This document shows positions 6,432 to 25,994 of a stretch of DNA of 64,000 nt, in pieces. Source of the DNA: Paenibacillus sp. UNC451MF (lineage in GTDB: Bacteria; Bacillota; Bacilli; Paenibacillales; NBRC-103111); assembly GCF_000686845.1 (NCBI RefSeq), contig NZ_JMLS01000017.1, forward strand, positions 62,001 through 126,000, in the 5' to 3' direction. The notes beneath the pieces were generated by a model that made no database searches, had not been told where the DNA came from, and saw nothing but the letters and a program-made list of their open reading frames with translations. Position 1 is the first letter of the stretch; every line of letters begins with the position of its first letter. The position numbers were made by a program, and so were the translations under genes.

Positions 6432-7340
6432 GTGAGCACTCAGAAAGTGGCTGCAAATGTGATTGCAATTTGGATAAGCTTAATAAGCAATTTACTTTTA
6501 ACGGGGATTAAACTTATCGTAGGTTTTTTGTTCAATAGTCAGGTGCTGATAGCAGATGGTATTCACAATGCAGGGGATGTTATTGCAACAATGGCTGCTT
6601 TAGGTTCAGCAAAGGTTGCTCAAAAACCACCTGATGAGGACCATCCATATGGACATGGTAAAAGTGAACTTATTGGTTCTGCGATGGTAGCGATTATTAT
6701 GGCATTAGCTGCCATCTTTATTGCGTATCACTCTATTGAATCATTTTTCCATACAGCGGTTGAAGCAAGTTTTATTGCTTTAATTGCAGCGGTCATCTCG
6801 TTAATTTGGAAACAGTGGCTGTACATCTATTGTATGAAGCTTAGCCAAGAGACCAGCAGCAAAAGTCTAGAAGCTACAGCGCTTGACCATTTGGCTGATG
6901 TGTATGCTTCCATTGCAGCAGTCGTTGGGATCGGTGCAGCCATCATTGGTGACAAGTACAGTATTAATTTCTTGAGCTATGGAGACGCTGCAGCGGGTAT
7001 TGTTGTTGCTTACTTTGTATTAAAGCTTGCCTATCACATGGGCAAAGAATCTGTCGATGTGTTGATGGAGAAAACGGTCTCCCCAGAAAAGCTAAGGGAG
7101 TATGAGGAGCTTGTTTTTTCTGTTCAGGAAGTAAAACGCATTGATAGACTTCGCGCAAGAGCCTTTGGTCAATACGTGATGATTGATGTTCGCGTTGGAA
7201 TACCGGCTCAATTAAACGTCCAGGAGGGGCACGATGTGTCCCGAAAAATCAAACAAACGATAATGAAACAGCATCATGATGTAGAAGAAGTACTGATTCA
7301 CTTAAATCCATGGTACGAAGGAGAAAAAGTGAATAATTGA
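6432..7340 (+). CDS. Cation diffusion facilitator (CDF) metal exporter
   Basis: A 302-residue membrane protein of the CDF family, proton-coupled exporters of Zn, Fe, Mn or related divalent metals. The first half has about six transmembrane helices. Metal-site motifs are visible in helix 2 (ADGIHNAGDV) and helix 5 (ATALDHLADVYAS), with the histidine-rich DEDHPYGHGK loop between. Residues about 205-300 form the cytoplasmic ferredoxin-like dimerisation domain. The start is GTG 6432, with GGAGGT about eight bases before it. It stands alone. The metal cannot be read off: the helix 5 motif is Asp-x3-Asp with a preceding His, so Zn, Mn and Fe all remain possible. Confidence 0.9.
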   Translation: MSTQKVAANVIAIWISLISNLLLTGIKLIVGFLFNSQVLIADGIHNAGDVIATMAALGSAKVAQKPPDEDHPYGHGKSELIGSAMVAIIMALAAIFIAYHSIESFFHTAVEASFIALIAAVISLIWKQWLYIYCMKLSQETSSKSLEATALDHLADVYASIAAVVGIGAAIIGDKYSINFLSYGDAAAGIVVAYFVLKLAYHMGKESVDVLMEKTVSPEKLREYEELVFSVQEVKRIDRLRARAFGQYVMIDVRVGIPAQLNVQEGHDVSRKIKQTIMKQHHDVEEVLIHLNPWYEGEKVNN

Positions 7341-7428
7341 TCTGTCCTAATTGATCCTAATCAGAATATCCCCCTCTCCAGGCTACTATATATAGTGTAT
7401 TAGAATTGCCGTACAGGGAGGGATCCAG

Positions 7429-8247
7429 TTGTCCAATGAATTTGTCAGGCGTTCCTTAGATGAAATTAGGTTCTGGTCACGCATTATGAAAGAACATTCC
7501 TTATTTCTCAAGCTTGGATTTCGTTGCGATGATACTGAATTAATACAGGAAGCAAATCGATTTTATAGTATTTTTGAGCAAATAGAAGGTGCTTCCCACT
7601 CGTTTACCGAGTCAACTGATCCCGAGCAAATTAAACGATTTAATGCTGAAGTACAAACAGCGGCGACTCATATCTGGGCTTTTAAAAGAAAAGTTCTGGG
7701 ACTGATTATACAATGTAAACTTCCAGGCGGTAATAATTTCCCTCTGCTCGTTGACCATGTAAGCAGGGAGGCGAATTATTTTAGAAATCGCTTAAAGGAA
7801 TTGAATGAAGGAAAGCTAGAACCGTTGCCGGATGCGATTATAGATGAAAATGTATTCTTTTTGCGAATTATGGCGGATCACGCCAAGTTCATAGGACATC
7901 TTCTTGACCCGTCAGAACGTCAATTAGTTGAACAAGCGAGAAACTTTAGCCATGACTTTGACCAATTACTGTTTCAAGCTATTGATTTGAGTGGTATGCG
8001 CCCTCAATCACAAACCCAGCCTCTTCTGGGCCAATTCCTAGATGAAAATCGGGTTTCTGTCGTCTCGCTTCGAGACTTTAAAAAGACGGCGAGAGATTTA
8101 ATTGATGCATGTCGCATAAAAAGTATTATTCATCCTTTACTTGCCGACCATGTGTTTCGTGAAGCCGAGAGGTTCTTGTTTATCATTGATATGTTCGAAG
8201 CAAACTTAATTGGGGGAGCTCAATCACATCAGCAGAGTAAGAAATAA
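7429..8247 (+). CDS. DUF2935-family protein
   Basis: A 272-residue soluble protein made of two similar all-helical halves, each opening with an aromatic and charged helix: FWSRIMKEHSLFLKLGF near residue 12 and FFLRIMADHAKFIGHLL near residue 144. This duplication is the hallmark of DUF2935, a Bacilli family with conserved His and Glu/Asp suggestive of a helical metal-binding bundle; its biochemical role is not established to my knowledge. The start is TTG 7429, because a GGGAGGG site lies just upstream and the nearby ATG is out of frame. It ends at a bidirectional terminator shared with the convergent MFS gene. Confidence 0.8.
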   Translation: MSNEFVRRSLDEIRFWSRIMKEHSLFLKLGFRCDDTELIQEANRFYSIFEQIEGASHSFTESTDPEQIKRFNAEVQTAATHIWAFKRKVLGLIIQCKLPGGNNFPLLVDHVSREANYFRNRLKELNEGKLEPLPDAIIDENVFFLRIMADHAKFIGHLLDPSERQLVEQARNFSHDFDQLLFQAIDLSGMRPQSQTQPLLGQFLDENRVSVVSLRDFKKTARDLIDACRIKSIIHPLLADHVFREAERFLFIIDMFEANLIGGAQSHQQSKK

Positions 8248-8296
8248 GACTTGGGTTCGGGTTTAAACAGCAAAACATGAAACGGATTGGATACTT

Positions 8297-8334
8297 AGAG
8301 AGCAGGTGCTTCGGCATCCAGCTCTCTTTTTTAT
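8297..8334. terminator. Bidirectional terminator with TTCG tetraloop
   Basis: Stem AGAGAGC...GGTGC / GCATC...GCTCTCT closed by a TTCG tetraloop, with T-runs on the plus side and A-rich sequence on the other. It lies between two convergent genes and can serve both. Confidence 0.85.
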
Positions 8335-9545
8335 TGAGAAGAACTTAATTTACTTGCAGGCTTAATGGCCAATAAAGCAAGGACAGCTGCTATTGCACAC
8401 GCTGCAGCGATGCTGAAAAACAGGATGGATGGAGAATTCTTTATAAGTATGGAAGCTAAGGGAGGGCCTGCGGCAACACCGATAAATCTCATGGAGCTAT
8501 AAATCGAAGTAATCGTTCCCCGTTGGGATTTTTCAATACTTTCAGTTATTAGCGCATCTAAACAGGGCAAGACGACACCTATTCCAATTCCACTAATACA
8601 TATAAAAATAATCAGAATTAAGACAGAATGAAAAAAACCAATCAATAGAAGACTCGCGGTTAATACAGTAACTCCAGAAAAAGTTATCCACTTCATCAAT
8701 ACCATGTTTTTTCCAATTATCTTACCTGTAACAAAGGAAGCTATGCATAGAAAAGCCAATGGAATAGCTAAAATACATCCTTTAATTATTCCTTCTATAT
8801 GGTAATTCTCTTCCAATATATCGGATAAATAGAATAAGACACCAAAGATGACCAGCATGCAAATACCTCCAATTGTAAATATAGCGTATAACCATCGACC
8901 GTTATTTTTAAATATTTGCTTTATTTCTTTAAGGAAGCGGGTAACCGAGGTTTTTTTCTCATTGCAGTCCTTTTTCGGGGCTTTTACAAGAAAAATAACG
9001 AGTAAGGCAGATATGAGGCAGAAAACAGGAATGGTAAGGAAGGGCAAGAACCATACAACGGAAGCCAAAGCTGATCCTAAAATAGGGCTAAGCACTTTGC
9101 CGAACGTATTTGCAGTCTCAACAATTCCCAGACTGCTGCTTACATCGTCTTCTTTTTTAAACATATCTCCAACCAGAGGAAGAACGATTGGAAAAGCGCC
9201 TGCCGCGCCAATCCCCTGTAGTAAGCGACCTAACATGATAATGATATAGGACTGATCAACCCACCAAGCACCTAAGCCTGAAATTAACCCTCCTAAACCT
9301 GTAATCAGTAAGCTTGGAATTATAATCATTTTTCTGCCGAATCGATCTGATAAATACCCTGCCACAGGTATAAATATAATGGCTACGGCGGAATAAATAG
9401 TGATTAACAGACTCACTTGAAGAGAGGTTATTCCTAATTTGCTGCGTATTGCTGGCAACACAGGAATAAGCATCGAGTTTCCCAAAGTCATGATAAGTGG
9501 TATAGATGCGATTGCTATAAGATCCCACTTTTTACTTTCTTCCAT
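8331..9545 (-). CDS. MFS drug-type efflux transporter (DHA1/ACDE type)
   Basis: A 404-residue major facilitator with about twelve transmembrane helices. Motif A, GYLSDRFGRKMI, follows helix 2, and the helix 4-5 region has GRLLQGIGAAGAFPIVLPLVGD, which matches the proton-antiporter motif C region of drug/proton antiporters. It most resembles the multidrug and siderophore exporters of Bacilli. The start ATG 9545 is the first in the frame. It is transcribed away from the 9.8 kb gene, with no local regulator. Substrate unknown. Confidence 0.85.
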   Translation of the reverse strand: MEESKKWDLIAIASIPLIMTLGNSMLIPVLPAIRSKLGITSLQVSLLITIYSAVAIIFIPVAGYLSDRFGRKMIIIPSLLITGLGGLISGLGAWWVDQSYIIIMLGRLLQGIGAAGAFPIVLPLVGDMFKKEDDVSSSLGIVETANTFGKVLSPILGSALASVVWFLPFLTIPVFCLISALLVIFLVKAPKKDCNEKKTSVTRFLKEIKQIFKNNGRWLYAIFTIGGICMLVIFGVLFYLSDILEENYHIEGIIKGCILAIPLAFLCIASFVTGKIIGKNMVLMKWITFSGVTVLTASLLLIGFFHSVLILIIFICISGIGIGVVLPCLDALITESIEKSQRGTITSIYSSMRFIGVAAGPPLASILIKNSPSILFFSIAAACAIAAVLALLAIKPASKLSSSQ

Positions 9546-9848
9546 TTATGCACCTGTCCTTCTAATGAGAATAGAGGTCCAAATATCCAACCCATAATAT
9601 ACCCTTACTCTTGATTTACTATGTAGATCGTCTGGCTTATGTACAATAAAGGAGGGTGGTTGAGAATATACAATATATGGATGGGCGAAAATGAGAGATC
9701 AACTTGGAACAAGAATGGGTAACAATGGAAAAAGTATGGCTTTACGTAGTACTTGAAGGAGGGTGAGTCACTCGTCCATTTTTGTTATAGTTATTAAATC
9801 ACTTTACCTATATATGGTATTAAATTACAATTAAATGGATTAGCCACT
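9546..9848. other. 303-base divergent gap
   Basis: It holds the promoters of the MFS gene and of the GNAT-fusion gene. Two Shine-Dalgarno-like runs (AAAGGAGGGTGG near 9650 and GAAGGAGGGTGAG near 9758) are followed only by tiny frames of about 20 codons, for example TTG 9660 to the TAA near 9720. No known RNA, repeat or terminator was recognised. Confidence 0.4.
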
Positions 9849-12800
9849 ATGAATGTTGTTAAAGTCCGAGATGAGGTGAAAGGGAACGTGAGCTCGAATT
9901 TAGATTTAGAGCAAGTACAAATCGTTGAATACGATCCTATCTATGCACAGCAAATTGCAGCCATGTGGAATGAGAGTCATGAGAGTTGGGGAGGAAGCAA
10001 TCGTGTCCGAACGGCGGAGAGTGTAGTACGAGAAATTGAAAACGCAGGCTATCTGAAGTTATTCCTAGCGATAATACATAACAAAGTCGTTGGATACTGC
10101 AGCTTCTCACATTATAAAAATGACGAAGGAGCGCTTTATGTTCCGCTTTTGAATGTGAGTCCCTCTTATCATGGACGCAAGATCGGAAAGTCCCTTATCC
10201 TTAAAGCAGTACAGACGACAATTGAGATGGGGTGGCCCAGACTCGATCTGTTCACATGGGCAGGCAACACGAAGGCAGTTCCGATGTATAAAAAATGCGG
10301 ATTTTTCTGGGAAAAGAAAGAAAACTCCGTTCATTTGATGAATTTTATCCCTACAGTGCTGCAAACCGAGGCATTGGAACCGTATTGGGATAAACTAGAT
10401 TGGTATGCCGACAGCGTACGCTCATTGGATATAGCTCCTGATGGACGAACGGAAAGCGGATTTGACTATTTTGAGTATGTGTGGGAAAAAAACGGAGTGT
10501 CGCTGCGAGTGGAATTTGAGAAAACAGCCAGAGGAATGCGACTTATTGAAACAGATGATTATTCAATCCATACGGAAATCGATGAGCATGCTTTGGTATT
10601 CGGCTCGAGTTACCCCGTACGATACGTTATACGAAATAAAACAGGCAGACATTTAGACTGCACGGTTCGGGGAATTAGCGATAAAAACATTCGTTTCGAG
10701 CTGGATGAAACGGTCTCCGTTCATGATAAGTGGGTTGTTGAAGGAGAATTCGAGCTTGATCCGGTGCAGGAAGAGCAGAGCGATTGGAAAACCCATCCGG
10801 CTGTAACGACGGAATGGACCATTAACGGACGCAAAGCTCTATTTCGGACAGGAATTGCACCGAAGTTTCCAGCTAAAGTTAAATTGGAAGTGCAAGGGCA
10901 AGAGCAATATACGGATGTGCAGGGGGAAGCCTTTGTTACGTTTGAAAATAATTATAATGTGCAAGCCACTTTCGAATTTACGTTACCGCCATCATCTTTT
11001 ATTACGTATGATATACCTCAGGTAAAAGTCGATATCCCAGCGAAGGGCAAAGTTTCCGTACCGATTTCCTATAGGCTTAACGATTTTGGACTTTATTCCG
11101 AGGATGTCTTGATCAAAACTAAGCCGAATAACCTCCCGGAAGTGTCCTATAGGAGCAAACTACACAGTATTTTTAAAGGAAATTCCGGGCAATACGGTGG
11201 CGATGCGCTAGATCATTGGGTAGCAGTGAATGGTCCCTACACATTGGGCTTAAATAAGAAAAATAATGACTTTTGGGTATCCCACTTTAATGGAGGCAAC
11301 CAACATTCCTGGCTTTACCCTAGAATGGGCAGACCGTACTCGCTTGAATTTATGAAGAAACCAGCAGAAAGTGTCAAAGTATTTACCGATGGAGATACTG
11401 TGGTTATTGAAGCTGATTATGTATCAGACGACTTTCCTGGCATCACTTTGACGGCGTACGGCCGATTGCAATCTAATGGAATTGTGGAGCGATATTTTAA
11501 AGTCTATAACGGTTCGTCGGAATCATTGTCTGACGACCTCTTCCTCAACGATACATTCTACTTTGAATGGAAGAAGCTCGTACTTCCTTATGACGGGCAT
11601 TATTATGACTTAGCCGATCAACACGCTTCTGATAGCGATGATTGGGAGCTTAATCGTATCTCTGAGCATTGGATGTTCAGCCGCGCTGAAAAGCTGTCGT
11701 TCGGCTTTTACTGGGATTCTTCTGCAAAACTGATAAAAACAGAATGGCATTTTGGTATTGAATATAACGTGGGGCGACTGGCAGAGGGTGAATCCTACCG
11801 AACGCCTTCAACATTCCTTACCATCGGCACGTATACGGATTGGTGGGATTTTCGTTCCTATGCATTGAAAAGAAGAGAGGCTATCCGTCCTCTGCTGCGT
11901 GACCATTGTGAACTGCTTTTGAAGAACCGAAATCCGTTTACTCGTTCTGATGCTATAATTGAGCTAAGGCAGCATCGAAGACAGCCATTGGATGGCAAGC
12001 TGAGCTTATCATCGACATCGGCAGGATTTGAACAGGTGAATCAAACGTACGAGCAAACAGAAGAGATGTATGCAGCCTCTTTCCTTATAGCTGATCAATC
12101 AGCAGGCGAAATCGGAGCGGTACATATGGAATTCGAGGCAGCCGATCTCACGTTCGAACGAAGCGTCGCTTTTATACCAATATCGAACACGCCGACCGTT
12201 CAGGAGATAGGTCAAGGAGAAGCAGGGGAACTCTATCGCTGCGACAACGGGATACTAAGCATTGAAGCGTCACCAGCTTTTGGGTCAGCACTTCATTCTC
12301 TTAAGTATCAAGGGGAGGAGTGGCTTGACAGCTCATTTCCTGTACCGGGTCCGCGTTCTTGGTCGAATCCATGGCTAGGTGGTATTTCGGCTTCAATACA
12401 AGGTATGTCATCGCTTACTCAACTGGAGGAGCCGCGCAGTGCCGAATTCGTTACACTAATGGACAGCTTCGGCAACGAGTGGCGCGGCATTGAGCTGCGC
12501 ACATGGATCCGCAAGCACGAAAAAAACCGCGGATTGGAGCTAAGCCTATTTACTCTGCTACTACCTTCTGCGCCGGTGCTTTGTTATGTGACCCGATTGA
12601 CGAACCGGTCAGGCTTGTCCTACAATCAATTCCGAAGTACGGTGAACACGTTTCTTCACCCCGATCGGGAGCTTACAAAAGGGTGGGCGGAAAAAGATAA
12701 CGACATCCGCTACCGCTGCGGCAAGGTAGGTTTATCGATTCAATCCGAAGGTGTCATCCGCTTTGGCTCCGATGATCGTTCAACTTTATTGCATGCAGTG

Positions 12801-13022
12801 AGCCGTCATCCAGGTTCGAATGCATCGCTTTACACCAATAATTTATTAATCGAGCACAGGGTGTCGCAGAATGTACCGCTGCTTGATGGTAATACCGTGT
12901 GGGGTTCTCCCGGATTTATAATCTTCGGAAATACACCGTTTACCTACAAGCAGCTTCAGGGATTAGTCGACATCCGTTTTGATGAAGCTCATAACCAAGG
13001 AGGCCGTAATGCCGATTATTGA
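9849..13022 (+). CDS. GNAT acetyltransferase fused to a large beta-rich domain protein
   Basis: A 1057-residue protein with no signal peptide. Residues about 25-165 are a GNAT N-acetyltransferase domain: the acetyl-CoA loop is VSPSYHGRKIGKSLI and the end is TKAVPMYKKCGF. The remaining 890 residues are beta-rich. The stretch about 240-430 looks like immunoglobulin-type or CARDB-like sandwiches, and about 800-1050 resembles a galactose-mutarotase-like sandwich as seen in sugar-processing proteins. No catalytic motif was recognised outside the GNAT domain. ATG 9849 lacks a clear ribosome binding site; GTG 9876 or 9888 are alternatives that keep the whole GNAT domain. Its last 14 bases overlap the amidohydrolase gene, so the two are coupled. 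Confidence 0.65.
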   Translation: MNVVKVRDEVKGNVSSNLDLEQVQIVEYDPIYAQQIAAMWNESHESWGGSNRVRTAESVVREIENAGYLKLFLAIIHNKVVGYCSFSHYKNDEGALYVPLLNVSPSYHGRKIGKSLILKAVQTTIEMGWPRLDLFTWAGNTKAVPMYKKCGFFWEKKENSVHLMNFIPTVLQTEALEPYWDKLDWYADSVRSLDIAPDGRTESGFDYFEYVWEKNGVSLRVEFEKTARGMRLIETDDYSIHTEIDEHALVFGSSYPVRYVIRNKTGRHLDCTVRGISDKNIRFELDETVSVHDKWVVEGEFELDPVQEEQSDWKTHPAVTTEWTINGRKALFRTGIAPKFPAKVKLEVQGQEQYTDVQGEAFVTFENNYNVQATFEFTLPPSSFITYDIPQVKVDIPAKGKVSVPISYRLNDFGLYSEDVLIKTKPNNLPEVSYRSKLHSIFKGNSGQYGGDALDHWVAVNGPYTLGLNKKNNDFWVSHFNGGNQHSWLYPRMGRPYSLEFMKKPAESVKVFTDGDTVVIEADYVSDDFPGITLTAYGRLQSNGIVERYFKVYNGSSESLSDDLFLNDTFYFEWKKLVLPYDGHYYDLADQHASDSDDWELNRISEHWMFSRAEKLSFGFYWDSSAKLIKTEWHFGIEYNVGRLAEGESYRTPSTFLTIGTYTDWWDFRSYALKRREAIRPLLRDHCELLLKNRNPFTRSDAIIELRQHRRQPLDGKLSLSSTSAGFEQVNQTYEQTEEMYAASFLIADQSAGEIGAVHMEFEAADLTFERSVAFIPISNTPTVQEIGQGEAGELYRCDNGILSIEASPAFGSALHSLKYQGEEWLDSSFPVPGPRSWSNPWLGGISASIQGMSSLTQLEEPRSAEFVTLMDSFGNEWRGIELRTWIRKHEKNRGLELSLFTLLLPSAPVLCYVTRLTNRSGLSYNQFRSTVNTFLHPDRELTKGWAEKDNDIRYRCGKVGLSIQSEGVIRFGSDDRSTLLHAVSRHPGSNASLYTNNLLIEHRVSQNVPLLDGNTVWGSPGFIIFGNTPFTYKQLQGLVDIRFDEAHNQGGRNADY

Positions 13023-13884
13023 TATTCACATTCATTTGTCCGACATTGAGAGCTTTCATCATACGGCGAGAGAGCTTTCGGGGGTTGATTATAGCGTAGC
13101 CGGGCTTCAGAGCGAGTTCGAACGAAACGATGTCATCTTGGGAGTCGGGATGGGCGTTCAGGAACAGACGAAGGGAGCTTTTCCGGACAAGGATGCATTG
13201 AATCCGATGAGGCTTGATTTGGCTGATCCGATGCCGCCGTTTTTGATGGAATGCGTCGGCATTAACCCTGTTCAACTCGCGGGCTCCGATGGCTTGCAGC
13301 AGCTGGATGCGATAGAAAAACGGCTGGCTTCGCGTAACGTTGCCGGAATTAAGCTTTATGCTGGATACTACCATTATTATGTTACGGATCCCATCTACGG
13401 GGCTGTATACGAGCTGGCTAAGCAGTATGATCTCCCGGTAGTTATTCATACGGGCGACACCTATTCCATCGATGGTCTGCTGAAATATTCCCATCCGCTC
13501 ACCGTCGATGAGCTTGCTTACCAGCAGAGAGGCGTTCGATTCATGCTGTGTCACCTCGGGGACCCTTGGGTCATGGACGCAGCAGAAGTGGTCGCCAAAA
13601 ATCCGAACGTCTTCGCGGATTTATCCGGTTTAGTCGTAGGCGATCGACTCAAGTTCGACAGGTTTATGAATGAGCCGCTGTTTATGGATCATTTTCGCAG
13701 AGCGCTCGTCTATGCCGACAACTATGAGAAAATGCTGTTCGGAACCGATTGGCCGCTTGCTCCCATTGATGTATATATTGACTTTGTGAAACATCTCATT
13801 CCAGAGAAGCATCAGGATAATGTTTTTTATAATAATGCGTTACGCGTATTTCCTAAAATTGCTCAGTTCCTCGCTGAACGTTAA
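13009..13884 (+). CDS. Amidohydrolase_2-type metal-dependent hydrolase
   Basis: A 291-residue TIM-barrel amidohydrolase. The metal motif HxH is at residues 6-8 (DIHIHLSD). A possible bridging Lys lies in GIKLYAGY. The later metal ligands are His in VVIHTGDT, His in MLCHLGDP and Asp in FGTDWPL. This is the layout of the amidohydrolase_2/LigW group, which cleaves C-C or C-N bonds, decarboxylates or acts on lactones. I chose ATG 13009 with AAGGAGG six bases upstream over the frame's ATG at 12979. It overlaps the preceding giant gene by 14 bases and the two probably work on the same substrate, which is unknown. Confidence 0.85.
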   Translation: MPIIDIHIHLSDIESFHHTARELSGVDYSVAGLQSEFERNDVILGVGMGVQEQTKGAFPDKDALNPMRLDLADPMPPFLMECVGINPVQLAGSDGLQQLDAIEKRLASRNVAGIKLYAGYYHYYVTDPIYGAVYELAKQYDLPVVIHTGDTYSIDGLLKYSHPLTVDELAYQQRGVRFMLCHLGDPWVMDAAEVVAKNPNVFADLSGLVVGDRLKFDRFMNEPLFMDHFRRALVYADNYEKMLFGTDWPLAPIDVYIDFVKHLIPEKHQDNVFYNNALRVFPKIAQFLAER

Positions 13885-13888
13885 ACAG

Positions 13889-13930
13889 AAAAGCCAGAAT
13901 TCCTTCCCAAGAAGGAAATCTGGCTTTTTC
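13889..13930 (+). terminator. Rho-independent terminator after the amidohydrolase
   Basis: Long stem AAAAGCCAGA...TTCCTTC / GAAGGAA...TCTGGCTTTTT with a CCAA loop and T tail, beginning a few bases after the stop codon. Confidence 0.9.
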
Positions 13931-13984
13931 TTCGTGTTATTAATGGTCAAAGGGAGTAAAGGATGCGTCTATTCAGAACTTTTT

Positions 13985-14228: not shown

Positions 14229-15178
14229 TTATTCCGTAGAAGTAGGGGCGAAGGGGTTATCTGTTTGACGAACAGGTCCTGTTGAGCTGCGGATGACGAG
14301 CTCATTAGGAAGAATCACATTGCGGCGATCCAACTGCGGTTCTCTGATGAGGGAAACTACCAGATTGGCTGCTTCGCGTCCCATATTCTTTTCGTTTTGA
14401 TCAATGTAGGTTAACGGAACCTCAGATAAATCCGATTGCTCATAATCGTCAAAGCAGACAATCGACAAAGCCTTGGGGACATCCAGTTGAAGTAAGTGTG
14501 CTGCTTTATTAACCATCATGCCGATGCTTGAATTCGTCGCAACAATGGCGGTAATATCCGGATTTTGCAGCAAATATTGCTTTATTTGATCGATAGGCGG
14601 CTCGCTGCTTTGGTTCAAGCTTAGTCGTAGGCGGTAATCGATAAACAATCCGGAATCACTTAAAGCCCGCTCGTAACCGTGTAAGCGATCTTCAATGCTT
14701 GTAGTACCTGTGAGAACTGAGCAAATAATGCAAATTTGAGTATGGCCCAATCCGGTCAAATGCTTGGTTGCATCATAAGCGCCGACGTAGTTGTCCGAGC
14801 TGACACAGTTGGTGTCAAGCCCGCGCAAATATCGGTCGATAATGGCTAGCGGGAAATGATCCAGCGTCAGATTCAAGATTTCATCGTTAAACGATTCCCC
14901 GTCTACAGGATAAATAATAATACCGTTAACACCGAGCTGGGTTAGTTCCTTCAAAATTTAATGAAAGAGCCTCTGCCTTGAATTCTATAAATTAAGCCTT
15001 GCTCTACCATATCAGCCATCGCATTTTTAACGGTAATCCGGCTAACATCAAACTGTTCGGCCAGTTCATTTTCCGAGGGTAGCTTGTCTCCTGCTTTCCA
15101 GACGTCGGTTTGAATTTGAGTATAAATGTAGTTTTTTAGTTGTATATACATAGGAACCCTTTTCTGGGCGTTTGACAT
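14229..15178 (-). pseudogene. Disrupted GntR/LacI-type (AraR-like) sugar-responsive regulator
   Basis: Two consecutive minus-strand frames read as one regulator. The first (15178 to 14951, 75 residues) is a complete GntR winged helix: KLPSENELAEQFDVSRITVKNAM and YRIQGRGSFIKF, then TGA. The second (14954 to 14229) is a periplasmic-binding-like sensor starting VNGIIIYPVDG and including the CVSSDN and TAIVATNSSIG segments. In intact AraR-like proteins about 60 residues (linker and the first beta-alpha unit of the sensor) stand between these parts. Here they are missing and the frame shifts. DNA binding may survive as a free winged-helix peptide; sugar sensing should not. It faces the decayed mannosidase gene, which it may once have controlled. 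Confidence 0.75.
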
Positions 15179-15453
15179 AGGATGATGTTCTCCTTGTATT
15201 CTTTTTTATAACAAATATACAACTAACTTTCTTATTAGTAAAGCTATTAGAAACCACATATAAATAATGAAACGTCATTATCAATAGGATATAGGAGTGG
15301 ATACACATGTTATTTTAAAAGCATGTGCATATCGTTTCACCATCTTGTGGAGATCGTTCATCATTGGAGTATTCCTGCATGCGGTGATGAATTGTTTACT
15401 CAAGAAATAACGAGCAATTTTGTTATTTTGATTAAATTAAGCAATAAATCATT

Positions 15454-15574: not shown

Positions 15575-15633
15575 AACTTCCATAATTTAATAAATTTATA
15601 ATTCATTAGGACGTGAAGGCAGGTGAGCTTTGC

Positions 15634-17118
15634 ATGTCAGAACCGTTACGAATTGGGGTCGTAGGTGTTTACCATGAAACGAACACGTTTGCACCTGGTT
15701 TAACGCACTGGAGTGACTTCAGCCATTGTTGCACGCTGGGGGAAGCTGCCTTCATGGAGCTGTTCCAGCATACTCGAACTACGATGGGAGGAGTGATCGA
15801 TGCAGCGCTACAAAACTCAATAACTCTTGTACCTGGTTTGTATGTTTCGGCGACGCCTGGAGGAATAGTGTCGGATGAGGCTGCGAGGCATATTTTGCAG
15901 GAGCTGACACATTCGATTCAACCGGGTCTTGATGGTTGGGTCGTTATCCTTCATGGAGCGATGGTATCTGAGAGCTGCCTCGATATGGAAGAAGCTATAT
16001 TGGAGGCCATCAGAAGCCGCATTGGTGTAGAGATTCCCATTGCTGTCACTGTGGACCTGCATGCCAATCTGGGATCAAACATGTCCCGGTTGTGTAATTT
16101 GCTCATCGGTTATGACACTTACCCTCATATCGATGCTTATGAACGCGGGATGGAAGCTTTGCAGCTGCTGGTTCGCCAAATTCGTGGAGAGATTCAGCCT
16201 GTGATGGTATTGGCAAGACCGAATATGCTTGTAGTTCCTCAAAAAATGATCACGACACAAGGCGTCATGAAGCAGATCATGGAGAAGGCGTTTGCAGTGG
16301 AGCGTGACCCTGACGTGCTAAATGTAACCGTTTGCGGTGGATTTCCGTACAGCGACGTACCTTTTGCGGGCATGTGCTTTGCTGTGACGACCAATGGACG
16401 GGAAGCCTTGGCACATCGCTATGCGGATGAGCTGGCTCACCTTGCCTGGTCTCTGCGGGATCAGTTTCAAGCTGAAGTGGTAAGTGTGTCGTCAGCAATG
16501 CGATCTGTTCTGGAAGCCGATGAGGGACCCGTCATTCTGGTGGAAGGGTCCGATAATGTAGGCGGCGGTTCCCCGGCTGATGCTACACATCTGCTGCATG
16601 AGCTTCTAAGGCTCCCTGTAAGAAGCCTGATTGTTATCCGAGACCCTGAGGCAGTTACATTCGCATGTCAACAAGGTGTAGGCAAGCTCTTCTCGTATAC
16701 GGTTGGAGGCAAAAGTGACAACCTGCACGGCAAGCCGGTTCCAGTTGAGGGGAAGATCCGGCTGCTTTTTGACGGAATGTATACACATCGGGGGCCATAC
16801 ATGAAGGGTACCATAGCATTTATGGGAACAACTGCCGTTGTTGAAGCAGGTCCAGTGACCCTTGTTCTTACTTCCGAGCGGGTGCCTCCCTGGGATATAG
16901 GGCATGTTGAATCATTAGGGCTGCATCCTTCTTTCTTCCATATCATTGTAGTGAAATCGGCCGTAGCCTGGATTAGCGCCTTTGGACCCTATGCCAAGAA
17001 GATTATCGAGGTGGACACATCTGGATGCTGTACCTCTTCGCTGGATAGTCTCCCATATCGTCATGTACCTCCATCTGTATTTCCATGGAATTCATTTGAA
17101 AAGGAGCATGCAGAATGA
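15634..17118 (+). CDS. M81-family metallopeptidase (MlrC / microcystinase C type)
   Basis: A 494-residue cytoplasmic zinc hydrolase of the MlrC family, known for hydrolysing peptide or amide bonds in linearised microcystin products and other small unusual peptides. Family blocks are in order: HETNTF near residue 16 (metal His), TVDLHANLGS near 145, GGFPYSDVPFAGMCF near 235 and EGSDNVGGGSPADATHLLHEL near 305. I chose ATG 15634 because AGGTGAG lies six bases upstream; GTG 15613 has no good site. Its stop overlaps the aminotransferase start by four bases. Substrate unknown; the setting suggests an amide-linked amino sugar or amino acid derivative. Confidence 0.88.
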   Translation: MSEPLRIGVVGVYHETNTFAPGLTHWSDFSHCCTLGEAAFMELFQHTRTTMGGVIDAALQNSITLVPGLYVSATPGGIVSDEAARHILQELTHSIQPGLDGWVVILHGAMVSESCLDMEEAILEAIRSRIGVEIPIAVTVDLHANLGSNMSRLCNLLIGYDTYPHIDAYERGMEALQLLVRQIRGEIQPVMVLARPNMLVVPQKMITTQGVMKQIMEKAFAVERDPDVLNVTVCGGFPYSDVPFAGMCFAVTTNGREALAHRYADELAHLAWSLRDQFQAEVVSVSSAMRSVLEADEGPVILVEGSDNVGGGSPADATHLLHELLRLPVRSLIVIRDPEAVTFACQQGVGKLFSYTVGGKSDNLHGKPVPVEGKIRLLFDGMYTHRGPYMKGTIAFMGTTAVVEAGPVTLVLTSERVPPWDIGHVESLGLHPSFFHIIVVKSAVAWISAFGPYAKKIIEVDTSGCCTSSLDSLPYRHVPPSVFPWNSFEKEHAE

Positions 17119-18440
17119 ACCGATACCAGCAATCGATTGATAAATTTCAAGAAGCAAAAGCTTATGTGGCGGGAGGGGTAGCCAGCAGTCTCCGAGTTTC
17201 GATGAAGCCGACGCCCTTGTACGTACACAAAGCGTACGGAGCGATAATTCAAGATGTGGACGGCCACAAATACATTGATTATATGTTGGCATATGGCCCT
17301 CTGATCTTTGGTCATGCCCATCCCGGGTTTAACGAGCGAATCGTCGAAGCCCTGCAAAAGGGGAGCACCTACGGCATGCAGCACGACGGAGAGATTCAAT
17401 TGGGCCGGCGTTTAACGGAAATACTGCCTTGCGCCGAGCAGGTCGCATTCAGCGGCTCTGGTACCGAAGCGGTGATGCTCGCACTGCGGCTAGCTCGAGC
17501 CTTTACCTCAAAAAGAAAAATCGTCCGATTTTATGGTCATTATCATGGGTGGTCGGACACCATTTTTACTTCCTTCCCAAGCCCGGACTTCTCTTCTGCA
17601 GGCTCAACCGAAGGGAGCTCGGATATCATCCCGGGAACAAACGGACAAAGCCGCAGCAGTTTGCAGGATATTATCCTCTTGCCGTGGAACGATCCCGAAG
17701 CTTTGGAAGAGACGCTAACCAAACATCATCATGAGATAGCAGCGGTCATAACAGAGCCCGTTATGTGCAATTCGGGTTGTATTGCACCCAAACCGGGTTA
17801 TATGGAATTCATGCGCGAGTTGACGTCAAAGTTAGATATCGTACTCATCTGGGATGAAGTGATCACCGGATTTCGCATGGGGCTTGGTGGGGCGCATGAA
17901 CGCTTCGGCATCCTTCCGGATCTTGTCACCATCGGCAAAGCGTTGGGTGGGGGGATTGCTTTAAGCGCAGTAGCAGGCAAGAGAGAGATTATGTGTCTCA
18001 TCGAAGAAGGCACTGTCATGCACCTTGGTACGCTTAATGGCAACGGCCTGTCAACAGCAGCTGGATTAGCAGTCATTGAAGAGTTATCGAAGGAAAACGG
18101 ACAAGTGCTCAAGGAGATGGAGAACACCGCAATCCGTCTGTCGGATGGCATTCGATCTTTGCTTGCCCGTAACGGTCATCAAGTCGTTGTCAATCAACTA
18201 GGTCCGGTATTCCATGTCATGTTTATTGATAGAACCGAAGTGAACGATTTCGATACGTTTAATCTTCGGGATATGAAACTATATACACGATTTGCTGAGG
18301 AGATGCTGCACGAAGGGGTACTCGTTCGTCCCAATGGGCTCTGGTATGTCTCATCAGCTCATGGACAGGAAGAAATAGATAAGACCTTGTCCGCGGTAGA
18401 ACGGGTTGCACAGAAGATAGCCCACAATAATCAGGTGTAG
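17115..18440 (+). CDS. Class-III aminotransferase, glutamate-1-semialdehyde mutase-like
   Basis: A 441-residue pyridoxal-phosphate enzyme. The cofactor lysine is Lys275 in TIGKALGGGIALSAVAG, the Asp that binds the ring nitrogen is in LIWDEVITGFRM, and GSGTEAVMLALRLAR binds phosphate. Sequence blocks such as YGPLIFGHAHPG resemble glutamate-1-semialdehyde 2,1-aminomutases. The heme pathway role is unlikely here, because the gene sits between a peptidase and a lactonase with four-base coupling; a catabolic transaminase or aminomutase is more likely. AAAAGGAG precedes ATG 17115. No motif settles the amino donor. Confidence 0.88.
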   Translation: MNRYQQSIDKFQEAKAYVAGGVASSLRVSMKPTPLYVHKAYGAIIQDVDGHKYIDYMLAYGPLIFGHAHPGFNERIVEALQKGSTYGMQHDGEIQLGRRLTEILPCAEQVAFSGSGTEAVMLALRLARAFTSKRKIVRFYGHYHGWSDTIFTSFPSPDFSSAGSTEGSSDIIPGTNGQSRSSLQDIILLPWNDPEALEETLTKHHHEIAAVITEPVMCNSGCIAPKPGYMEFMRELTSKLDIVLIWDEVITGFRMGLGGAHERFGILPDLVTIGKALGGGIALSAVAGKREIMCLIEEGTVMHLGTLNGNGLSTAAGLAVIEELSKENGQVLKEMENTAIRLSDGIRSLLARNGHQVVVNQLGPVFHVMFIDRTEVNDFDTFNLRDMKLYTRFAEEMLHEGVLVRPNGLWYVSSAHGQEEIDKTLSAVERVAQKIAHNNQV

Positions 18441-18464
18441 AGACAAGGAAGAGAGGCGAGAATC

Positions 18465-19316
18465 ATGCTGTATAAAAGCCGCCTTTTGACAAATCCGCAT
18501 GAATTTACTTCTGGCATTGAAGGACCTGCTTGCGACAGGGACGGTAATTTGTATGCTGTAAATTATGCCAGAAGGCATACGATTGGAGTGGTTACTCCTC
18601 AAGGAGACAGTCGTCTGTTTCTTGAGCTTCCAGCAGGAGCAACTGGGAACGCGATTCGCTTTCATCCATCGGGTCCAATGTTCATAGCCGACTATACCGG
18701 ACACCGTATATTACGCGTCGATATGCAAACACGGGAGATCGATACTTTCATGGAGCAGCCTGCGATGAACCAGCCTAATGACCTCGCTGTAACAAGGAGT
18801 GGCATTTGGTTTACAAGCGACCCGAATTGGAAGCAATCAGATGGGAACCTTTGGCGTATTGACGAGAACGGCAAGGATGAGCTGCTGGAATTTGGAATGG
18901 GTACCACAAACGGGATTGAAGTCGGCTATGACGAGCGAACCTTGTACGTGAACGAAACCGTTCAAAGAAGAATATGGCAATACGATTTGACGGTGGACGG
19001 TCAGATCAGTAATAAACGGCTGTTCTACGAATTTGCTGACTATGGACTGGACGGCATGCGCTGTGACGTAGAAGGAAATGTGTACGTGACACGCTTCGGA
19101 AAGGGTACGATTGCCGTACTTTCCCCGCAGGGCAAGCAAATCAGAGAAATTATGTTACACGGTAAGCAATGTACGAACTTAACCTTTGGTGGTGTGGATG
19201 GTCGTACCTGCTATGTCACTATGGCAGACACGGGAGCAGTCGAAACCTTCCGGACGGAGGTCGCGGGAAGGTGCTGGGCGCTTTTGCACAACAATTTAGA
19301 AAAGGAGCGATTTTAG
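18465..19316 (+). CDS. SMP-30/gluconolactonase-like hydrolase
   Basis: A 283-residue six-bladed beta-propeller of the SMP-30/gluconolactonase/LRE family, calcium- or zinc-dependent lactonases acting on sugar acid lactones. The expected metal ligands are present in order: Glu in GIEGPACDRDGNLY (about residue 19), Asn in NQPNDLAVTRSGIW (about 102) and Asp in GLDGMRCDVEGNVYVT (about 195). The gene starts 24 bases after the aminotransferase stop, behind AAGGAAGAGAGG, and its stop abuts the RidA start. The presence of a lactonase supports oxidation of a sugar-derived compound in this pathway. Confidence 0.87.
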   Translation: MLYKSRLLTNPHEFTSGIEGPACDRDGNLYAVNYARRHTIGVVTPQGDSRLFLELPAGATGNAIRFHPSGPMFIADYTGHRILRVDMQTREIDTFMEQPAMNQPNDLAVTRSGIWFTSDPNWKQSDGNLWRIDENGKDELLEFGMGTTNGIEVGYDERTLYVNETVQRRIWQYDLTVDGQISNKRLFYEFADYGLDGMRCDVEGNVYVTRFGKGTIAVLSPQGKQIREIMLHGKQCTNLTFGGVDGRTCYVTMADTGAVETFRTEVAGRCWALLHNNLEKERF

Positions 19317-19742
19317 ATGAAAAAAACAATGTCGAGACAAGAAAACAACGGGAAACCTTTTAGCTCCGCCATTGAAGCGGGAGGGTTTATATATGTATCC
19401 GGCCAGGGGGGATTAGATCCAAACACCGGGCAAATCGTCAGCTCTGAATTAAGAGGACAAACCAACCAGACGCTGCACAATATCCAAAGCATCCTGCATG
19501 AAGCCCGCGCCACCTTGGACGATGTGGTCAAAGTTAACGTTTATTTGAAGGAAAGGGCGCATTATGAGGAGTTCAACAAAATTTATGGGAGCTTTTTTTC
19601 GTATCCGTTTCCTGCCAGAACTACGATCTACTGTGATTTGAATTTTGACATTCTGGTAGAAATTGATGTGATTGCACTCGCCCCGACGGCTGCTGCTGAT
19701 AGAGTGCTTGATGGGGCTGGAGCTCATGCAGACTCCGAGTAG
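19317..19742 (+). CDS. RidA-family (YjgF) enamine/imine deaminase
   Basis: A 141-residue trimeric RidA-type protein that hydrolyses reactive enamine or imine intermediates made by pyridoxal-phosphate enzymes and amine oxidases. Signature segments are GGFIYVSGQGGLDPNTGQ, a helix with DDVVKVNVYL, the arginine in FPARTTIY (about residue 101) that binds the carboxylate, and VEIDVIALAP with the catalytic-region Glu. AAAAGGAGCG precedes ATG 19317, which follows the lactonase stop without a gap. It fits with the aminotransferase two genes upstream. The last residues after ALAP extend beyond the core and overlap the next gene. Confidence 0.9.
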   Translation: MKKTMSRQENNGKPFSSAIEAGGFIYVSGQGGLDPNTGQIVSSELRGQTNQTLHNIQSILHEARATLDDVVKVNVYLKERAHYEEFNKIYGSFFSYPFPARTTIYCDLNFDILVEIDVIALAPTAAADRVLDGAGAHADSE

Positions 19743-20364
19743 CAATCTTCCTTATGTGTATCGCTGCCCATTAGTATTGGAAGAGCTTGGCTTCATTGAC
19801 TGGGATGCCATTCCGAGGATAGAACTATCGGATTGCCGTACTGGAGCTCAACCCGCTCTGCGTACTTATGTTCAATGCTGCCGGAGTGCCCATGAGCTGC
19901 ACGTCCGCTTTTACTGTGAGGAGGACGGAGTAATCGTTTCTTCCTACACGGAGAGGGACGATCCGCTGTATAAAGAGGATGTCGTGGAAATCTTTATCGA
20001 TGAAGGTGGGGACGGATCGCAGTACAAAGAGATTGAAGTGAGTCCGCGCAATGTTATTTTTGACGCCGCCATTACTAATGATAACTATCCTGAGAATGCA
20101 CAGGGGCTGAAGGTGAATACCTCCTGGGATATGGAGGGGATGGTCACTTCGGTCATTCCGCTTCAGAACGGGGATCTTGAATATCAGATTACAATACCTT
20201 TCAGCAGCTTGGATGGAGTACCTCTTGATGGCCAATGCTGGAAAATAAATTTTTATCGCATCGACCAGGATGCCGCAGGAATTCGACGCTATTGGGCATG
20301 GTCACCTACCTATCATCCTTCCTTTCACTTGGCCACCCGATTCGGCATATTACTTTTTGACTAA
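19726..20364 (+). CDS. CBM9-like carbohydrate-binding protein
   Basis: A 212-residue protein matching the carbohydrate-binding family 9-like fold. Features seen are FIDWDAIPRIEL near the start, a beta-rich core with LHVRFYCEEDG and DPLYKEDVVEIFIDEGGDGSQYKEIEVSPRN, and the end YRIDQDAAGIRRYWAWSP followed by FHLATRFGILLFD. No signal peptide is visible, so it is probably cytoplasmic, which is odd for a binding module and suggests that it senses or processes imported sugar. ATG 19726 is preferred over upstream in-frame ATGs (19672, 19711) because GGAG lies just before it. It overlaps RidA by 17 bases. Confidence 0.7.
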   Translation: MQTPSSNLPYVYRCPLVLEELGFIDWDAIPRIELSDCRTGAQPALRTYVQCCRSAHELHVRFYCEEDGVIVSSYTERDDPLYKEDVVEIFIDEGGDGSQYKEIEVSPRNVIFDAAITNDNYPENAQGLKVNTSWDMEGMVTSVIPLQNGDLEYQITIPFSSLDGVPLDGQCWKINFYRIDQDAAGIRRYWAWSPTYHPSFHLATRFGILLFD

Positions 20365-20379
20365 AGGATGGATGCATCT

Positions 20380-21162
20380 ATGAGTACATCGGAAAAATCA
20401 AACCCAACGGTCAAATCGGCCGATCGCGTCTTGGATATATTTGAATTGTTCGCAGAAGAAGGGGTACGTGAATTAAGTCTAATGGACATTGCACGACGTC
20501 TGGAGCTACCCGCGAGCAGTGTTTTCAAAATTGTACAAAATCTGGTTCACCGGGGGTACCTGGAGAAGGATGAGCATGGCAAGCTGTTTCATCTTGGCTA
20601 TAAAATCTTTCAAATCGGCGCCCAATACGCGCAGCACACGAATCTGACCGCAGAGTTTCAATCCATCGCGCAGCAGATCGTCTCTGAAGTTAATGAAGCC
20701 GTATATTTATCCATCCGAAGTGACAGGAACATTCTCTATATAGCGGAAAAACAAAGCACACATCCAGTTCGTTTTGTATCGCATTTGGGTATGCAGCTGC
20801 CGCTTCATACGACAGCTATGGGCAAGCTTTTTCTAAGTGCAATGCCCGATCAGGAGATAGTAACAATGTACGAAACCCAGAGTCTGGGTCTTCTTACCGA
20901 TCATACCTTGTCCGATTTGGATCAGCTGTTGGAGCAGCTTCATGAGATTCGCAGGACAGGGGTTGCTTATAGCAAGGGAGAAGCAGTGCAAGGGATTCAA
21001 TGCGTTGCCGCTCCCATCGTGAATGCGAAGCAGGAAATTGTAGCAGCCATGAGTATTTCCATTCCATTAAGCCGATTGGATGAAACGACCTGGAATCAAA
21101 TGGAGGAGCAGGTCATGCAAGGAGCTAGAAAGCTTAGCTGGCTGTTGTATTTTCAGGTGTAG
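20380..21162 (+). CDS. IclR-family transcriptional regulator
   Basis: A 260-residue IclR regulator: an N-terminal winged helix (about residues 10-75, with LSLMDIARRLELPASSVFKIVQNL) and a C-terminal effector domain (about 85-255, with HTTAMGKLFLSAM and GVAYSKGEAVQGIQCVAAPI). IclR proteins commonly repress or activate catabolism of small organic acids. ATG 20380 is favoured because AAAGGATGG then has correct spacing; ATG 20368 is the alternative. It closes the first co-transcribed block (15634-21162), and probably controls the island together with the AraC protein that follows. Confidence 0.9.
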   Translation: MSTSEKSNPTVKSADRVLDIFELFAEEGVRELSLMDIARRLELPASSVFKIVQNLVHRGYLEKDEHGKLFHLGYKIFQIGAQYAQHTNLTAEFQSIAQQIVSEVNEAVYLSIRSDRNILYIAEKQSTHPVRFVSHLGMQLPLHTTAMGKLFLSAMPDQEIVTMYETQSLGLLTDHTLSDLDQLLEQLHEIRRTGVAYSKGEAVQGIQCVAAPIVNAKQEIVAAMSISIPLSRLDETTWNQMEEQVMQGARKLSWLLYFQV

Positions 21163-24017: not shown

Positions 24018-25994
24018 ATGTCAAATCCAGTGAATAAGCATTCCGTTTCAGAAGATGTCGTTATGCTTGAGAACTCGCCAAACGAGCCTGTACAGGCATC
24101 CAAAGCTCCAATCAGCAGACGCAAACTTCTGGCTTCTCTAGGTCTTGCAGGAGTCGCAATGGCGACAGGGGGTTGGCTGTCAGGTTCGAGGCTGTCCGCC
24201 GCCTATGGTAATGCTTCCGTGACGAACGCCGTCTATAACAATTCCGGGCTGCCTTTAGAGGAAACCATTGCAAGTAATTATTGCATTCCTATCTCATTGC
24301 AGGCTTTACGGCTGGAGACAGCACCTTCTGTTGACGACATCTATTATGTTACCGATGAGGGGCAAAGGGGATTTTTTCACTATGATGCGACTGACACTTC
24401 TTCTCTTGACAATACGGGTACCGTTCTTGTGTCCACCGGAGGTCAACGCTTCAAACGATTGTACGACGATATGCTGTTGTCTTCCTGGTTCGGAACCAAA
24501 GGGGATGGAGTAACGGAAGATACGGTAGCACTCCAAAATGCTCTTAATGCATCTGTAGGGAAGAAGCTCTACATCCCGCTTCACAAAAACAATTATTATT
24601 TATCCGGGCAGCTTATTTTTCCAAGCCATATCACTATCGAATTTGAACACGGTACTATCATTCAGGCTATCGATACCTTGCTAAAAATTACCCCCTATGA
24701 GAGATTGGTTCGCATAAAAAACGTGACGGACATTACCCTTCATGGCAACGGGGCGACATTTCGAATGAACAAGGCCGTTTACCCATCAGGTGAGCAAGCC
24801 CATATTTTTGACATTAGCGGCTCCTCCAATATTACGATTGAACAAATTAATGCAAATGACAGTGGTGGGGATGGATTCTATATTGGCAATTACGAAGCCA
24901 CATTACCTTATTGCAAAAATGTTGTGCTGCGCGATTGTGTAGCCAACAATAATCGTAGACAAGGATTATCTGTCATCAGTGTCGACGGGCTCCTGGTAGA
25001 ACATTGTACATTCTCCAATACGAGCGGAACTTCCCCTCAAGCAGGTGTAGATATTGAGCCCAACAACACGAACAATCTGGAAATGCTCAAGAATGTCAGG
25101 TTTATAAATTGTCTTTCCGAGAACAACAAAGGCCGCGGATTTGTATCCATGGTGAAGAAATTAAAGGCTGCGAACGAGAAAATAGATGTACTCTTTCAAA
25201 ATTGTATCTCTCGTGGCAATACTTACGGCTTTGTTGTCAGCTACGGCAATGATGCCGCTAATAGCGGGGCTCAAGGTGAGATTAAATTCATCGATTGCCG
25301 AGCTGAAAAAGACCTGTATTGCGGCTTTGCGGAACTATCCTGCTCTGCCGAAAGTGTAAAAACTACCTATATCCGCTGCATAGCCTACAACAGCAATAGC
25401 AATAATGATCTGAATTATGAATATGCTCTAGGCTCCTCCTTTATTATTACAAGCCTCACAACCGAATCTCGACTCTCCATTGGCAATGCTTATTATTATG
25501 AGTGTGAAGCCATCGATGATCGTCAGCTATCACAAACCTTACGAGGATTTACAACTAAGAAGAAAGTGAACGAAACCATTAAAAAAGTCAGTTATGTCAA
25601 CTGTAAAGCTAATGGAGCCACGCTAGCTGCGTTTGAGGTTGAACCGATTTCTGAGGATGTGCTCATACGAAATCAACCCCAGCTCACGATTGCTCTACCA
25701 TCAGCTGGAGCAATAAGCCTGTCCTACCTTGGATTCAAAATTAACAATTCCGGAGCAACGGCTGCCGTAAGCTACACACTCCCCAAGGCGAAATCGGGCC
25801 GCAGCTATACGTTCTCCGTGAACGCTCCTCTCGAAGTGAATATCATAGCAGCGTCCGGCGATGCTATCTTGACGCCAACTGGAGCAGGTATCGTCAGGTC
25901 TGCGAACGTTGGAGACTCCGTAACCTTGTTGGGAAGAGCAGATGACCGGTGGGAGGTAGCTAGCGCCGTCGGCAACTGGTTTCCTTTAGTCTGA
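24018..25994 (+). CDS. Tat-exported right-handed beta-helix protein (Pectate_lyase_3 type), copy 1
   Basis: A 658-residue protein. After a 33-residue polar N-region it has a twin-arginine signal, SRRKLLASLG with Arg34-Arg35, and a hydrophobic segment, so it is probably exported folded. Residues about 155-200 hold the pectate-lyase-3 opening, WFGTKGDGVTEDTVALQNAL. Residues about 200-530 are parallel beta-helix repeats including NNRRQGLSVISVDGL and GVDIEPNN. The C-terminal 110 residues form a separate beta domain ending in a tail-spike-like segment. No lyase residues could be confirmed. It is a clear paralog of the gene at 33444. Likely role: binding or cleaving an external polysaccharide whose products feed the ABC importer. 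Confidence 0.82.
   Translation: MSNPVNKHSVSEDVVMLENSPNEPVQASKAPISRRKLLASLGLAGVAMATGGWLSGSRLSAAYGNASVTNAVYNNSGLPLEETIASNYCIPISLQALRLETAPSVDDIYYVTDEGQRGFFHYDATDTSSLDNTGTVLVSTGGQRFKRLYDDMLLSSWFGTKGDGVTEDTVALQNALNASVGKKLYIPLHKNNYYLSGQLIFPSHITIEFEHGTIIQAIDTLLKITPYERLVRIKNVTDITLHGNGATFRMNKAVYPSGEQAHIFDISGSSNITIEQINANDSGGDGFYIGNYEATLPYCKNVVLRDCVANNNRRQGLSVISVDGLLVEHCTFSNTSGTSPQAGVDIEPNNTNNLEMLKNVRFINCLSENNKGRGFVSMVKKLKAANEKIDVLFQNCISRGNTYGFVVSYGNDAANSGAQGEIKFIDCRAEKDLYCGFAELSCSAESVKTTYIRCIAYNSNSNNDLNYEYALGSSFIITSLTTESRLSIGNAYYYECEAIDDRQLSQTLRGFTTKKKVNETIKKVSYVNCKANGATLAAFEVEPISEDVLIRNQPQLTIALPSAGAISLSYLGFKINNSGATAAVSYTLPKAKSGRSYTFSVNAPLEVNIIAASGDAILTPTGAGIVRSANVGDSVTLLGRADDRWEVASAVGNWFPLV

Follow-up and report, generated by a model that had tools for sequence, protein, structure and literature searches.

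The described proteins closest to the locus examined here are the phosphinothricin/PaiA-type GNAT acetyltransferases (PF00583), the galactose mutarotase-like proteins, including Bacillus subtilis GalM (3mwx/4bze) and BDI_1685 (5cd6), and the Amidohydro_2-type proteins BB4693 (3irs), CAC3332 (3cjp) and the COG3618 amidohydrolase 4do7. An acetyltransferase and an amidohydrolase also occur together in Paenibacillus LC231, which carries the GNAT-related capreomycin acetyltransferase CpaA and the bacitracin amidohydrolase BahA (PMC5155152). We analyzed a 64,000-nucleotide stretch of the Paenibacillus sp. UNC451MF genome (7.49 Mb), hereafter termed the window, in which a gene encoding a GNAT domain fused to a long β-rich scaffold (the “giant”) is followed directly by an amidohydrolase gene.

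Each component of this locus resembles its described counterparts and departs from them. The GNAT domain shares both the Acetyltransf_1 match (20 of 20 giants) and the fold (Z-score of 14.7 to 1yr0) of the phosphinothricin/PaiA-type enzymes, but it is fused to ~890 residues of β-domains and in most giants carries a lysine at residue 111, where the consensus has glycine. Residues 781–1049 are predicted to adopt the galactose mutarotase fold (Z 19–20), but at 11–14% identity and without a hidden Markov model match up to an E-value of 10. The amidohydrolase has the same barrel fold as 3irs, 3cjp, and 4do7 (Z 22–24), although in the hidden Markov model alignment the residue of 3irs that corresponds to its His147 is not a histidine. 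CpaA and BahA, in the portions of the LC231 study cited here, are separate determinants, and BahA is a predicted membrane protein (PMC5155152). Neither component fold is new; we found no description of the fusion architecture or of the two-gene operon in the literature searched at record level, which agrees with the first-pass annotation, a model’s reading of the sequence alone, that knew of no described pathway with this pair.

A conserved two-gene unit

The giant and the amidohydrolase almost certainly form a real, conserved two-gene unit, laid out as follows.

9888–13022, + strand: gene for the giant (GNAT–β-scaffold fusion), 1044 residues from GTG 9888 or 1057 residues from ATG 9849
13009–13884, + strand: gene for the amidohydrolase (Amidohydro_2 metal hydrolase), 291 residues from ATG 13009

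Residue numbers of the giant refer throughout to the 1057-residue version from ATG 9849, and individual loci and genomes are cited by L and G numbers.

The giant is a real, conserved fusion. Its N-terminus matches Pfam Acetyltransf_1 with 49.2 bits (cut-off 20.7) over residues 67–152, and the ~890 β-rich residues beyond the GNAT domain match no Pfam or NCBIfam domain above cut-off. Full-length relatives with 35–64% identity occur in 9 of 58 other genomes related to the window, and 15 of 299 genomes sampled across the phylum, the window’s own among them, contain a match. Twenty giant sequences align along their length, all with an Acetyltransf_1 match at E-values up to 1. A single-sequence scan of the GTDB genome collection returned no giant relative, whereas an alignment-based, profile-guided scan returned 368; the locus counts below rest on the 80 nearest of these and lean to near relatives. 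All 80 are collinear with the giant, from residue 23 or lower to residue 1027 or higher. Because this collinearity runs over both parts, the protein is no sequencing join, and the frame-join artefact that the first-pass annotation had raised as a possible origin of the GNAT part is ruled out. Its description of a GNAT domain continuing into ~890 β-rich residues holds, by Pfam and fold for the former and by conservation in relatives for the fusion.

Most of the 80 nearest relatives come from Paenibacillus; others come from Brevibacillus, Bacillus, Alkalihalobacillus, Fictibacillus, Neobacillus, Alkaliphilus, and Tissierellales or clostridial metagenome assemblies. Three copies (L106, L123, and L132) are split into two open reading frames. 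Giants are present in 121 of 296 sampled genomes of the window’s order, in 71 of 318 genomes of another order, and in 10 of 13 genomes of the class to which G264 belongs. Twelve congeners of the window’s genome (G001–G012) contain no full-length match, reflecting either loss there or gain in the window’s genome. Horizontal gain of the pair is possible given this absence, yet the G+C contents of the two genes (45.7% and 48.7%, against 45.1% for the window) are ordinary. As a separate observation, in L082 (region 7956–9467) a fragment matching giant residues 197–275 lies upstream of an intact giant, with a MazE/MazF-like pair (by eye) between them; the fragment, also seen in L083 and L122, is perhaps the remains of a duplication with insertion.

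An amidohydrolase gene lies downstream of the giant at 76 of the 80 nearest loci, within 60 bases or overlapping at 73 and with an identical 14-base overlap at 34, while the next commonest neighbour of the giant appears at 18 of 81 loci. The two genes of L059 lie ~20 bases apart (from open reading frame and tblastn coordinates), the amidohydrolase of L106 is frameshifted, and L125, L126, L127, and L132 have no amidohydrolase beside the giant. Across the 296 genomes of the window’s order, the amidohydrolase is found in all 121 giant-bearing genomes and in two genomes without a giant; this count includes the fragmentary genes of G015 and G520 and drops 18 weak matches (~5e-25 to 9e-21) as other amidohydrolases by score gap. 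The 318-genome order holds 71 giants and 83 amidohydrolases, with both in 61 genomes, adjacent in 59 of these (odds ratio 62). Distances between giants and between amidohydrolases correlate over 37 loci (Pearson 0.88, Spearman 0.60), a correlation that shared descent alone can produce; both this mirror-tree comparison and the Fisher tests of co-occurrence are uncorrected for species phylogeny. Random adjacency is ruled out by the 76 of 80 pairings and the co-occurrence counts. The pair first proposed from the window alone is therefore a conserved unit, shared by 121 of 121 and 61 of 71 giant-bearing genomes in the two orders, and the concern that its parts might never be adjacent in homologs is answered by the 73 close pairings.

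The pair also extends beyond these orders. G593 and G594, both from a distant class, carry the intact pair, and their amidohydrolases score 446 and 432 bits with the amidohydrolase profile. At L054, where the giant is only very distantly related (23% identity), an Amidohydro_3 gene (212 bits) comes directly behind it, possibly an alternative form of the module. Two further arrangements were seen at these loci: in G593, two giants in tandem precede one amidohydrolase (L182, 6464–13032, − strand), and in L054 a DUF1028 gene, the distant giant, and the Amidohydro_3 gene stand in a row (7222–12482, + strand).

Gene starts and expression signals

The signals that frame the two genes are listed below.

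9803–9831, + strand: candidate promoter TTTACC-17-TACAAT from a consensus scan, weak to moderate
9873–9890, + strand: Shine-Dalgarno sequence GAGGTGA (9873–9879) and probable GTG start (9888) of the giant
12997–13003, + strand: Shine-Dalgarno sequence AAGGAGG of the amidohydrolase, within the coding region of the giant
13889–13933, + strand: probable intrinsic terminator closing the two-gene unit, with a stem-loop at 13889–13928 and a U-rich 3′ side

The list of open reading frames gives a 1057-residue frame at 9849–13022 (+ strand), followed by the amidohydrolase frame ending at 13884. The scan that found GAGGTGA before GTG 9888 found no Shine-Dalgarno-like site at ATG 9849. In all six close relatives examined (L056, L057, L058, L060, L106, and L110, leaving out the close L059), a Shine-Dalgarno-like site is present and the start lies just ahead of a conserved IQIVEY-like stretch. 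Because these relatives show the corresponding layout, the giant likely starts at GTG 9888 rather than at ATG 9849; the 1057-residue frame annotated at first pass exists, but the protein itself would have 1,044 residues. The amidohydrolase frame is listed with 301 residues from an upstream TTG and has 291 from ATG 13009. The 14-base overlap described earlier, with the ribosome-binding site of the amidohydrolase inside the upstream gene, is located at 13009–13022, and the two genes are probably translationally coupled.

A CTTTAC...TACAAT-like site recurs upstream of the giants in L056, L057, L058, L060, and L110; promoter-type sites in the region number seven against a mean of 8.6 in shuffled sequences, which is not above chance. 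Behind the pair, positions 13882–13940 fold with −25.6 kcal/mol (z −6.95), and a simple terminator scanner did not report the stem-loop at 13889–13928. The flanking genes on both sides lie on the other strand; together with the terminator-like stem-loop, this makes the pair look like its own unit.

Domain organization of the giant

The AlphaFold model of the giant (mean predicted local distance difference test score, pLDDT, 87.6; predicted template modelling score 0.73) was divided as follows.

9906–10352, + strand: GNAT acetyltransferase domain, residues 20–168 (Pfam Acetyltransf_1 and fold match)
10386–11186, + strand: β-rich, possibly Ig-like region, residues 180–446 (secondary structure of the model)
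11184–11918, + strand: β-domain, residues 446–690 (model)
12180–12992, + strand: galactose-mutarotase-type supersandwich, residues 778–1048 (VIA-align structural matches)

The GNAT domain is the most conserved of the parts compared, with a mean column identity of 72% over 32 sequences against 46–47% for the two aligned β-domains. Its match to 1yr0_A covers residues 22–167 (2.5 Å over 145 residues). The acetyl-CoA loop of GNATs follows the consensus R/Q-x-x-G-x-G/A; the window’s giant has HGRKIG, and residue 111 is Lys in 29, Gly in 2, and Arg in 1 of the 32 sequences. The domain is very probably catalytically active.

The central β-rich portion, residues 180–780, is less readily classified. 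Ig-type Pfam models match the giants weakly and in a minority only (FixG_C in 6 and Ig_CFAP65_4th in 3 of 20), and comparison of the β-domain of residues 446–690 and of the C-terminal domain with solved structures by sequence gave no credible match. Foldseek with the whole giant returned only low template modelling scores, to long β proteins of the ciliary apparatus, complement, and LacZ. Internal duplication giving rise to these two β-domains, whose motifs look alike by eye, is not supported, as hhalign profile comparison gave a probability of only 8%.

The C-terminal supersandwich is assigned by structure. Residues 781–1049 align to 5cd6_A with a Z-score of 20.1 (3.4 Å over 251 residues) and to B. 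subtilis GalM (3mwx_A) with a Z-score of 19.2 (3.2 Å over 233 residues); glycosidases, cellobiose phosphorylase, and polysaccharide lyases follow the mutarotase types. Pfam searches with this domain hit seven families, none of them in more than one of 32 members, with DUF1947 scoring best (9.9e-6). The domain carries a SWWNPWxGG-type signature, SWSNPWLGG in the window’s giant. Of the “mutarotase-like and Ig-like” regions named at first pass, the former is matched by the fold of residues 781–1049, and the latter fits the strands of residues 180–446 without a family match; “sugar-type sandwiches” in the plural went too far, as the fold supports this term for the C-terminal domain only.

The amidohydrolase

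The amidohydrolase of the window matches Pfam Amidohydro_2 with 93.6 bits (cut-off 26.4), as do 39 of 39 family members at E-values up to 0.01, and its AlphaFold model has a mean pLDDT of 96.0. The barrel aligns to 3irs_A with a Z-score of 23.6 over 255 residues. Its nearest solved folds are the uncharacterized 3irs and 3cjp and the COG3618 protein, followed by decarboxylases, 2-pyrone-4,6-dicarboxylate hydrolases, and TatD-type proteins. With regard to the earlier label “deacylase/decarboxylase-type”, decarboxylases are among the near folds, and no known deacylase appears as a close relative. The TatD profile scores 23.5 bits on the window’s protein (cut-off 27) and also matches 39 of 39 members at E-values up to 0.01, with a best E-value of 6.2e-12 against 1.9e-29 for Amidohydro_2. 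NCBIfam cut-offs are not reached by the window’s amidohydrolase (TIGR00010, 17.7 bits against 206; NF008522, 14.7 against 481), and the other members match only these two models in NCBIfam at 0.001.

His7, His9, Lys115, His147, His182, and Asp247 are present in 39 of 39 members, Lys115 lying near the end of the strand formed by residues 111–116. We take His7, His9, His147, His182, and Asp247 to be the HxH, His, His, and Asp metal ligands of the amidohydrolase superfamily. Judged from these conserved residues and from what is usual in the family, the enzyme is probably a binuclear metal hydrolase.

Proposed function and alternatives

We propose that the two genes may constitute a self-contained two-enzyme module. 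Both proteins would work in the cytosol, no signal sequence being apparent by eye. The mutarotase-type sandwich of the large protein, perhaps with the help of another β-domain, would bind a molecule resembling a sugar or a glycan, and the GNAT domain would transfer an acetyl group from acetyl-CoA to an amine of the bound molecule. The amidohydrolase would hydrolyze another bond, which could be an amide, an ester, or a lactone, in this molecule, its precursor, or its product. That both enzymes act in one pathway is probable, whereas binding of a carbohydrate-like ligand by the scaffold is an evenly balanced proposition. The mechanism taken together, exactly as stated, is tentative.

Several observations weigh against this proposal. 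A shared fold by itself shows no function, and profile comparison does not tie the β-domain of residues 446–690 to the C-terminal domain. Among 32 members, residues 778–1048 include no invariant or nearly invariant histidine. Their only invariant acids are Glu861 and Asp872, and Trp, Asn, Pro, and Gly dominate the invariant residues around the SWWNPWxGG-like signature. The supersandwich of the giants thereby differs from Lactococcus lactis GalM, in which H96, H170, D243, and E304 have been mutated according to PDB titles; this comparison was judged by conservation, without superposition. Because the supersandwich lacks an invariant histidine, a mutarotase reaction is unlikely, and the pattern suggests that the domain binds rather than mutarotates.

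The gene link has exceptions as well. Within the phylum sample, only 8 of 15 giant-bearing genomes contain the amidohydrolase at an E-value of 1e-20, and 18 of 26 amidohydrolase-bearing genomes, a few of them by weak matches, lack the giant. A search of 19 giant-bearing genomes found five without an amidohydrolase match and two with weak matches only (G264 and G336). In the 318-genome order, 22 of 83 amidohydrolase genomes have no giant and 10 of 71 giant genomes have no amidohydrolase; nine of these ten belong to one family, so this may be a single loss. Six of the ten lone-giant loci were inspected and have no amidohydrolase nearby, the next gene encoding a methyltransferase in three, 5-enolpyruvylshikimate-3-phosphate synthase in one, an α/β hydrolase in one (L189), and an unassigned product in one. 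On a Cytobacillus plasmid, guaC comes next after the giant and the stretch contains no amidohydrolase. Replacement by Amidohydro_3 is a single case (L054). The two enzymes are separable, since giants occur without the amidohydrolase and amidohydrolases without the giant. The link is strong, not obligate: Bacilli-type genomes show a strong coupling, other genomes a looser one.

Two observations were made alongside these counts. The methyltransferase genes behind lone giants lie at 9677–10477 in L190, 6050–7021 in L191, and 6618–7403 in L186, those of L190 and L191 looking alike by eye. At 20 loci where the amidohydrolase lies away from a giant, inspection by eye showed varied neighbours and none in common except a DegV-like gene in L149, L163, and L164; one of the 20, L157, has no amidohydrolase match over 100 bits.

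These exceptions bear on the view that the genes are cotranscribed without sharing a pathway, a widespread amidohydrolase having come to lie behind the giant a single time, with inheritance of the pair thereafter. Each gene stands alone in many genomes, the six inspected lone giants look intact (1025–1042 residues), and co-occurrence in the phylum sample is 8 of 15, all as this view would have it. We nevertheless consider it fairly unlikely, as both genes are kept without adjacency in G014, G113, G151, and G205 and, in the 318-genome order, in G625 and G666, and as co-occurrence reaches 121 of 121 in one order and an odds ratio of 62 in the other, values uncorrected for shared descent.

The module could instead serve intrinsic detoxification, with the GNAT domain modifying an amine-containing antibiotic or toxic analogue that the scaffold recognizes and the amidohydrolase opens or cleaves. 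Phosphinothricin, putative streptothricin, and aminoglycoside acetyltransferases are among the closest matches of the GNAT domain by fold and profile, but GNATs that serve other purposes, PaiA and NAA30 for example, share these resemblances. Resistance enzymes can be numerous in Paenibacillus, as in strain LC231, yet BahA is predicted, in the cited portions of that study, to have five transmembrane helices, unlike the amidohydrolase of the window (PMC5155152). An 890-residue scaffold would also be unusual for a resistance enzyme, and we regard this role as unlikely.

Likewise, the scaffold might recruit a protein partner, perhaps the amidohydrolase itself, for acetylation by the GNAT domain. 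The GNAT profile does match the N-terminal acetyltransferases NAA30 and NAA50, and strings of Ig-like domains are common protein-binding modules. The C-terminal fold is, however, of the sugar-enzyme type, and giants are also found in genomes that lack the amidohydrolase, which makes a protein substrate quite improbable. A sporulation-linked modification of a spore component is more improbable still: although spoIVA is present in 16 of 19 giant-bearing genomes checked besides the window’s own, it was not found in G054 (100% complete as listed), G336, or G319, all of which carry the giant, and the candidate promoter looks σA-like. A role in defence is without support, the PADLOC anti-phage models matching neither protein (0 families).

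Other genes in the window

Downstream of the pair, at 14229–15190 (− strand), a GntR-type helix-turn-helix (14955–15190, by eye) and a LacI-type effector domain (14229–14954) lie in different frames; the effector reading frame begins inside its domain, and the regulator gene looks broken. An apparent catabolic cluster at 15613–21162 (+ strand) encodes M81/MlrC-like, class III aminotransferase, SMP-30-like, RidA, and CBM9-like proteins, the aminotransferase being close to glutamate-1-semialdehyde aminomutase, and is followed by an IclR-type regulator (by eye). Further along, two similar proteins of ~660 residues, with N-termini that look twin-arginine, are encoded at 24018–25994 and 33444–35432 (+ strand) and flank a set resembling an ATP-binding cassette sugar transporter (by eye).

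Implications

Returning to the two-enzyme module, we picture, as one possibility, a large acetyltransferase with a built-in acceptor scaffold of the sugar-enzyme type, served by an interchangeable amidohydrolase (Amidohydro_2, or Amidohydro_3 in one distant lineage) and acting on a metabolite common in Paenibacillus-type cells. The giants form a family of ~1,050-residue proteins, without a named domain over five sixths of their length, and in two orders this family has a tight genomic link to a single enzyme gene. This gene link offers a direct handle on function, in the form of a shared metabolite effect. Knowledge of the substrate would reveal either a common, unmapped metabolic step in Bacillota or an intrinsic resistance function.

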